Source of the DNA: Paenibacillus sp.
GTDB taxonomy: Bacteria; Bacillota; Bacilli; Paenibacillales; NBRC-103111
Direction: 5' to 3'
Length of the DNA stretch: 64,000 nucleotides
Assembly: GCA_031180825.1 (NCBI GenBank)
Contig: JAPSLM010000014.1
Coordinates: forward strand, 1-64,000
Under the pieces are notes generated by a model. That model ran no database searches. It had not been told where the DNA came from and worked only from the letters and a program-made list of their open reading frames with translations. Shown one piece after another: positions 36,642 to 39,105 of this stretch. Positions within the stretch are counted from its first letter, which is position 1. Each line of letters opens with the position of its first letter. The translations under genes were made by a program, and so were the position numbers.

Positions 36642-36670
36642 TTGACTTTGTTCTTGACCATGAGTAGTAT
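36642..36670 (+). promoter_or_regulatory. Promoter for the MFS operon, -10 inside a palindromic operator
   Basis: TTGACT (36642-36647)-17 bp-TAGTAT (36665-36670). Confidence 0.6.
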
Positions 36671-36792
36671 TATGAAATACCACTAAACTAAAAGGAGGCG
36701 TTAATGTGACAACCGCCGTTGTTTTAAATTTTTGTTGAGGACGCTGAACCGTATTTTTTTGTTTTAATGTTAGTGGTATTTAAAAATACTAC
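36664..36792 (+). promoter_or_regulatory. Paired 23-bp inverted repeats (36664-36686 and 36770-36792) flanking a 10-codon candidate leader ORF (36706-36738)
   Basis: GTAGTATTATGAAATACCACTAA versus rc GTAGTATTTTTAAATACCACTAA; AAAGGAGGCGTTAAT-GTG ACA ACC GCC GTT GTT TTA AAT TTT TGT TGA. Confidence 0.6.
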
Positions 36793-36819
36793 CTAAATCG
36801 CTTCGAAGGAGATTCATCC

Positions 36820-38256: not shown

Positions 38257-38307
38257 CGACCGTTGTTTGACCGGCAACTTTTCAACATACAAAGGAGATG
38301 GAATTCC

Positions 38308-39105
38308 ATGGTACAAGTGAATGTAAACGAATTGCAGGAGTTATTCGCCAGCCTCGGAGGGCAGTTAAAGCAGAAGTATAACCACCGCACGGCCCCCCGC
38401 AACCGCGAAGAGATGTTCGCCAGATTCTCGGAAGCCAATGTCTGGGCCACCGAACAAATCAGACCGGTGCTGCGGCAAAAATACCCGGATATTCAATGGT
38501 CCTATGCCGATATTGATCCGGAGCTGCAGCATGCCGCTTCGGCATCCAAGCAGGCGTACTGGGTGCTGGACCCGGTAGACGGAGGCGTGCATTTGCATCA
38601 AGGGTTCAGCTCTTGGTCGATGGCCCTGTGCCTGATGGAAGGCGGAGAGCCTGTCTTTTCGCTCGTCTACGACCCCAACCGGCAAGAATTATTCCACGCC
38701 GCCCGCGGACAAGGCGCGTTCTTGAACGGAGCCCGCATTCACGTCGGGGAGAAGTCCGCGCTGCGCGACGCCTTCCTGGTAACGGCCCCGCCTTCTCTGC
38801 CGGATGAAGAACCGTTAACCGCGAAGCTTACCGCCGACGGAATCGGCAAGCTGCTTCCGCGTGTCTTCGGCATTCGTATGCTCGGCTCCGTCGCGCTTCA
38901 ACTGGCGTATGTGGCCAGCGGAAAAATGGACGGGTACTGGGAGTTCGGCGACGATTACTACGACCGGATGGCCGGAGCCCTGCTTGTCCGCGAAGCCGGA
39001 GGGATCGTAACGGATATCCGGGGCGAATCGTTTACCGCAGGGTCTTCGGGCATTATCGCCGGCAATGCGGCGATGCATGCCGCCATTCGCCACACCTTGG
39101 GTTAA
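38308..39105 (+). CDS. Inositol-monophosphatase-family protein
   Basis: 'YWVLDPVDGGVHLHQGFSSWSMALCLMEGGEPVFSLVYDPNRQELFHAARGQGAFLNG'; RBS AAAGGAGATGG. Confidence 0.87.
   Translation: MVQVNVNELQELFASLGGQLKQKYNHRTAPRNREEMFARFSEANVWATEQIRPVLRQKYPDIQWSYADIDPELQHAASASKQAYWVLDPVDGGVHLHQGFSSWSMALCLMEGGEPVFSLVYDPNRQELFHAARGQGAFLNGARIHVGEKSALRDAFLVTAPPSLPDEEPLTAKLTADGIGKLLPRVFGIRMLGSVALQLAYVASGKMDGYWEFGDDYYDRMAGALLVREAGGIVTDIRGESFTAGSSGIIAGNAAMHAAIRHTLG

Follow-up and report, generated by a model that had tools for sequence, protein, structure and literature searches.

Organization of the Locus

Within the window (the whole stretch of 64,000 nt of Paenibacillus sp. DNA that we analyzed), a gene for an MFS efflux transporter is preceded by a leader that carries a promoter, two palindromes, and a short open reading frame (table 1). 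An EmrB-type subfamily model gives the best match to the transporter, yet the match lies under the curated cut-off, and an NCBIfam scan of the pump assigned no specific drug. The Inositol_P gene is the probable second gene of the operon, its in-frame ATG at 38308 being a likelier start than the TTG at 38263; homologs of this gene elsewhere are found beside the operator described below or behind trmB.

Table 1. Features of the pump leader and the two downstream genes, in window positions
Feature	Position	Strand	Remarks
-35 element, TTGACT	36642..36647	+	Direct reading; TTGACA/T at the same spacing in 5/5 orthologous leaders
Predicted operator 1, GTAGTATTATGAAATACCAC	36664..36683	.	Covers the -10 element; retained in 5/5 orthologs
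-10 element, TAGTAT	36665..36670	+	Inside operator 1; 17-bp spacer from the -35 element
Shine-Dalgarno of short leader ORF, AAAGGAGG	36691..36698	+	Retained in 5 orthologs, each with 7 nt to the start codon
10-codon GTG ORF, MTTAVVLNFC*	36706..36738	+	Peptide and frame not conserved
T7 tract	36754..36760	+	Ends 12 nt before operator 2; resembles the terminator U-tract of relatives' trmB-target junctions, without the stem
Predicted operator 2, GTGGTATTTAAAAATACTAC	36773..36792	.	In transcribed leader; distance from its start to the pump ATG, 47 nt in 5/5
Shine-Dalgarno of MFS gene, AAGGAG	36806..36811	+	AAGGAGATTC retained in all 5
MFS efflux transporter, DHA2-type, 478 aa	36820..38256	+	PF07690, E value 4.4e-48
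Inositol_P (inositol monophosphatase-like) gene	38263..39105	+	PF00459, E value 1.3e-41

Direct reading identifies two dyads of the motif GTRGTATT-N4-AATACYAC in the leader, which we refer to as operators 1 and 2 in anticipation of their predicted function. An earlier reading of this DNA from its letters alone (the sequence-only reading) had placed the -10 element within a palindrome and a second copy of that palindrome about 107 bp downstream, and both descriptions hold, the distance being 109 bp from start to start. Between the end of operator 2 and the MFS ATG lie 27 nt. Judged from the position of the -10 element, the RNA would start near 36677, so that operator 2 begins about 96 nt past this start, inside the transcribed region, and this position is retained in all five leaders compared below.

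The leader repeats lie far above chance expectation. A repeat search returned a single inverted pair in the leader (30 nt, 83%), the best 23-nt inverted match is 21/23 whereas 60 dinucleotide shuffles of the leader gave no more than 17, and the best motif score is 16/16 as compared with at most 13 in 2,000 dinucleotide shuffles. Dyads of at least 7/8 number two in the leader against a mean of 0.14 in dinucleotide shuffles (P = 0.0075 for two or more), and the 64-kb window holds no motif copies beyond these two.

Conservation and RNA Structure of the Leader

We compared the window with the orthologous loci of P. ehimensis, P. tyrfis, Paenibacillus sp. A3, and P. oleatilyticus; in these four congeneric genomes the pump is 91–95% identical and is preceded by the same leader. 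The five leaders retain the -35 and -10 elements and an operator spacing of 108–110 bp. Mean pairwise identity is 0.82 for the -35 element and operator 1, 0.83 for operator 2, and 0.86 from operator 2 to the ATG, as against 0.75 for the leader ORF and 0.60 for the stretch 3' of it; conservation is therefore centered on the operators and the ribosome site of the pump. In P. oleatilyticus (G010:C98:71163-72592; L013, L015, L041) the pump frame is broken into two overlapping pieces with internal stops, and both operators are intact.

The ribosome-binding site, the GTG-initiated ORF MTTAVVLNFC*, and the small ACAAC/GTTGT hairpin of the sequence-only reading are all present on direct reading. That reading had staked its account on conservation of the ORF and the repeats in orthologs: the inverted repeats recur in all five leaders, whereas the peptide and its frame vary. 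The relatives encode MHMLLF (twice), MAPAIF, and MHMVLF, each with an in-frame TAA, and indels relative to them place the peptide of the window in another register. As a conserved sensor the leader peptide was rejected, its stop lying in a different register across relatives.

These observations bear on ribosome-mediated attenuation, in which ribosomes stalled by an antibiotic on the leader ORF would alter the RNA structures governing expression of the MFS gene. A perfect Shine-Dalgarno sequence at the same distance from a start codon in all five leaders and a U-rich tract downstream of the ORF speak for such a mechanism, but the stability of the window leader RNA does not exceed that of shuffled sequences (z = +0.70), folding of the five leaders revealed no common RNA structure, and neither a terminator/antiterminator pair nor a convincing stem ahead of the U-tract was found in them (z values for the stem, -1.05 to +0.34). 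A weak stem at the U-tract is seen in one leader only (G022, z = -1.05) and is absent from the others, an Rfam scan of the window gave no match above the gathering score, and the repeats recur at regulator promoters that have no such ORF. Because the peptide is unconserved, the fold resembles that of shuffles, and terminator and antiterminator are lacking, attenuation is unsupported and we regard it as very unlikely. Since the leader Shine-Dalgarno sequence and its 7-nt spacing to the start are nevertheless invariant among the five orthologs, ribosome binding or translation at this site may matter and the leader may have a role in mRNA stabilization; the 10-codon ORF itself is probably a leftover or an mRNA-stability element.

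A further claim, that the two 23-mers pair in the RNA into a long stem, fails on the position of the promoter: an RNA starting near 36677 would lack the left half of operator 1, and the two copies therefore cannot fully pair. About 10 bp of pairing (AUACCACUAA/UUAGUGGUAU) are left in the window RNA and are also seen in the fold of G022. Such pairing of the mRNA 5' end with the second repeat could, together with the leader Shine-Dalgarno sequence, form a stabilizer of the STAB-SD type that needs no DNA-binding protein, and it would be in keeping with the inner arms, which covary in two of the five leaders: the inner half-sites are CCAC/GTGG in the window (36680–36683 and 36773–36776) and Paenibacillus sp. 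A3, and CTAC/GTAG in the other three. Covariation of this kind is expected either from an RNA stem or from template-switch correction of an inverted repeat, and five sequences are too few to be conclusive. Against the RNA role, operator 1 is only half transcribed, the 5'–3' stem is missing from two of the five minimum-energy folds (G004 and G010), and single, unpaired dyads occur at regulator and target promoters, which makes an RNA element a highly improbable explanation of the repeats. Inner half-site covariation of paired operators is also seen at L036 and at L007; at L007 an Inositol_P gene is preceded by two operators with a separation of 26 bp.

Association of the Motif with a TrmB-Family Regulator

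Searching the window's own 4.33-Mb genome with up to two mismatches gave three sites, namely the two leader dyads and one that lies 20 bp ahead of a TrmB-family gene, unlinked and on another contig (G000:C22:121476-122246). The product is 59% identical to the homolog at L008, which matches the PF01978 winged-helix domain with 61.1 bits against a cut-off of 25.6; the G014 homolog matches the Pfam TrmB model (9e-17), and a profile of the regulator matches the solved TrmB 3qph (4e-7). The match to the PF11495 effector-binding domain is partial (residues 107–159, 22.7 bits vs. 22.2), and the recognition-helix region VSVSRTNVYAALR is almost invariant. The candidate regulator is thus a TrmB-family protein and not one of the HxlR, MarR, or TetR proteins initially suggested. 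The sequence-only reading is right that the pump has no regulator gene beside it, and this is so only because the two are encoded apart in this genome; trmB adjoins the pump in Brevibacillus, Cohnella, and Cytobacillus.

Within the genus, two trmB lineages that share about 59% identity substitute for one another (L033 and L045 vs. L047, L050, L051, and L052). One, found in P. ehimensis as well as in the genome of the window, adjoins genes for a 2-oxoacid oxidoreductase, and the other is located elsewhere in P. elgii-like genomes; both apparently use one operator. In the window genome the genes divergent from trmB (L077:924-4288; G000:C22, about 117923–121287) encode a 340-aa subunit and a fused subunit of 767 aa of a 2-oxoacid:ferredoxin-type oxidoreductase and probably use the trmB operator region too.

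Across the order, TrmB homologs were collected from 53 of 399 genomes and 33 loci were inspected. At all 33 the motif lies over or near the promoter or start of trmB itself, with a mean score of 14.3/16 as compared with 9.5 in shuffled upstream sequence, and many of these promoters have the layout of the pump promoter, TTGAC(T/A), a 17-bp spacer, and TAGTAT within the operator. Among 25 congeneric genomes, the motif (no more than one mismatch) was found in 12 of the 14 that encode the regulator and in 1 of the 11 that do not, a co-occurrence with a Fisher p value of 2e-4 among related and hence not independent genomes; in the two regulator-containing genomes with no match (G002 and G006) the copy is weaker and has more mismatches. 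Beyond the pump, the sites found in the genus lie at genes for TrmB-family proteins, Inositol_P, a 2-oxoacid oxidoreductase subunit, and PDH-type E1. In Brevibacillus parabrevis, Cohnella sp. SGD-V74, and Cytobacillus massiliigabonensis, an ortholog of the pump (60–65% identity) is encoded directly behind trmB in the order operator, trmB, terminator, operator, pump, and in the congeneric G005 trmB and operator 2 are followed by a decayed MFS gene. These comparisons establish the sites, their conservation, the regulon, and the linkage to the regulator.

Since binding by TrmB is read from linkage, a different regulator could in principle own the operators and also control trmB and its neighbors. 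We give this explanation very little credence, as the motif tracks trmB over 33 loci in several genera while the neighboring genes change, and the window's own genome has no further site. The sites in that genome, the motif at 33/33 trmB promoters, and the linkage of regulator and pump agree in designating the palindromes as TrmB-family operators; very probably, both are operators of an unlinked, autoregulated TrmB-family repressor that would act in trans.

trmB-Target Junctions and the Origin of the Leader

At 11 loci (L037:2138-2969, L038:2109-2947, L039:2124-2960, L049, L050, L052, L055, L057, L063, L064, and L067) a pump, PDH, or Inositol_P gene lies behind trmB, and the junction consists of a terminator-type hairpin with a T-tract followed by operator 2. 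The gap from U-tract to operator is 12 nt in 10 of the 11 and 13 nt in L055, and the arrangement spans several genera independently of the downstream gene. Terminator stems at six pump and PDH junctions have z values of -2.7 to -3.6; the GC-rich Inositol_P junctions have low folding energies with mostly unremarkable z values. In the window and two of its orthologs a T7 tract, 12 nt, and operator 2 follow each other in the same way; in the remaining orthologs the gap measures 13 nt and 14 nt. The simplest reading of this likeness is that trmB and the terminator stem were lost from between two operators and that the leader ORF may be a remnant. Loss would be favored over insertion because the leader retains the U-tract; the pump tree sets leader-type pumps apart from trmB-linked pumps, with rooting too poor to distinguish trmB loss from insertion.

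A Model for Regulation of the Pump

We infer binding and repression by the TrmB-family protein as follows. As operator 1 overlies the -10 element, a repressor bound there would mask it and block initiation, whereas one bound to operator 2 in the transcribed leader would form a roadblock to elongation or cooperate with operator 1. An effector would free the repressor and allow expression of the pump and the Inositol_P gene. The same operator is present at the regulator's own promoter and at target promoters and overlaps core promoter elements, as expected under autoregulation. Looping or cooperation between the operators is possible; looping is not specially favored, because 109 bp is a non-integral number of helical turns and the spacing varies by 2 bp. 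Of the two modes initially proposed, two-operator repression has gained strong support, and attenuation is unsupported by peptide, fold, and terminator. TrmB proteins can also activate, which counts against a pure repressor reading.

The distance from the active site of RNA polymerase to its front edge is about 12 nt. Because the near-fixed 12-nt gap is close to this distance, polymerase could be held at the U-tract by repressor bound ahead of it. Tentatively, and with appreciable doubt, we propose a widespread module of Bacillota in which TrmB bound about 12 nt past a terminator U-tract would halt polymerase with the RNA end at that tract and so combine roadblock and intrinsic termination to set read-through from regulator to target, the window being a derivative that would have lost regulator and stem and retained U-tract and operator.

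As for the signal, the usual ligands of the TrmB family are sugars (PMC4158304), and the co-regulated genes encode central-carbon enzymes. All 12 bacterial TrmB homologs that we aligned share Cys56 in the winged-helix domain (L033:1501-2271), a possible redox sensor; by analogy with the archaeal TrmB protein OxsR, which responds to a redox signal (PMC9426492), the regulator might respond to such a signal.

Comparison with Known Systems

To our knowledge, TrmB-family regulators are rare in bacteria and have received little description, and our literature search, the coverage of which was incomplete, did not turn up a member from Paenibacillus or Bacillus whose operator is known. The mechanism belongs to a known class, and the searchable literature appears to contain no description of the regulator, its operator, or its regulon. 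A bacterial member of the family would thereby gain an operator sequence, a site of autoregulation, and a small regulon spanning genera and consisting of an efflux pump, an Inositol_P enzyme, a 2-oxoacid oxidoreductase, and PDH-type E1, and an apparent "leader peptide" before a pump can be the remnant of a departed regulator gene.

The regulator shares the PF01978 winged-helix DNA-binding domain with archaeal TrmB of Pyrococcus furiosus (PDB 3qph), which represses transport genes from a palindrome over the core promoter, as predicted here, and autoregulation has been proposed for the family member Tgr (PMC4158304). It differs in being a bacterial protein of about 257 aa with a partial effector-domain match, in its targets (efflux pump, Inositol_P, and pyruvate-type enzymes), and in its operator, which is GTAGTATT-N4-AATACTAC as opposed to TACT-N3-AGTA (PMC4158304); against the NCBIfam equivalogs for archaeal sugar-sensing TrmB it scores far under the cut-off (35.8 bits vs. 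500). The leader resembles the BmrB-bmrCD attenuator of Bacillus subtilis in having a short ORF with a strong Shine-Dalgarno sequence before a drug transporter (PMC4191407), but no terminator/antiterminator was found here, the peptide is unconserved, and the operators account for the repeats. Repressors bound to transcribed DNA stop polymerase in the cases of CcpA and CodY of B. subtilis and of LacI (PMC4132739, PMC10310618). Operator 2 likewise lies within transcribed DNA, at a distance of about 100 bp from the promoter, where we propose such blocking; unlike those sites, it trails a terminator-type U-tract by a near-fixed 12 nt across loci, and this terminator-operator module is the part that merits an experiment.
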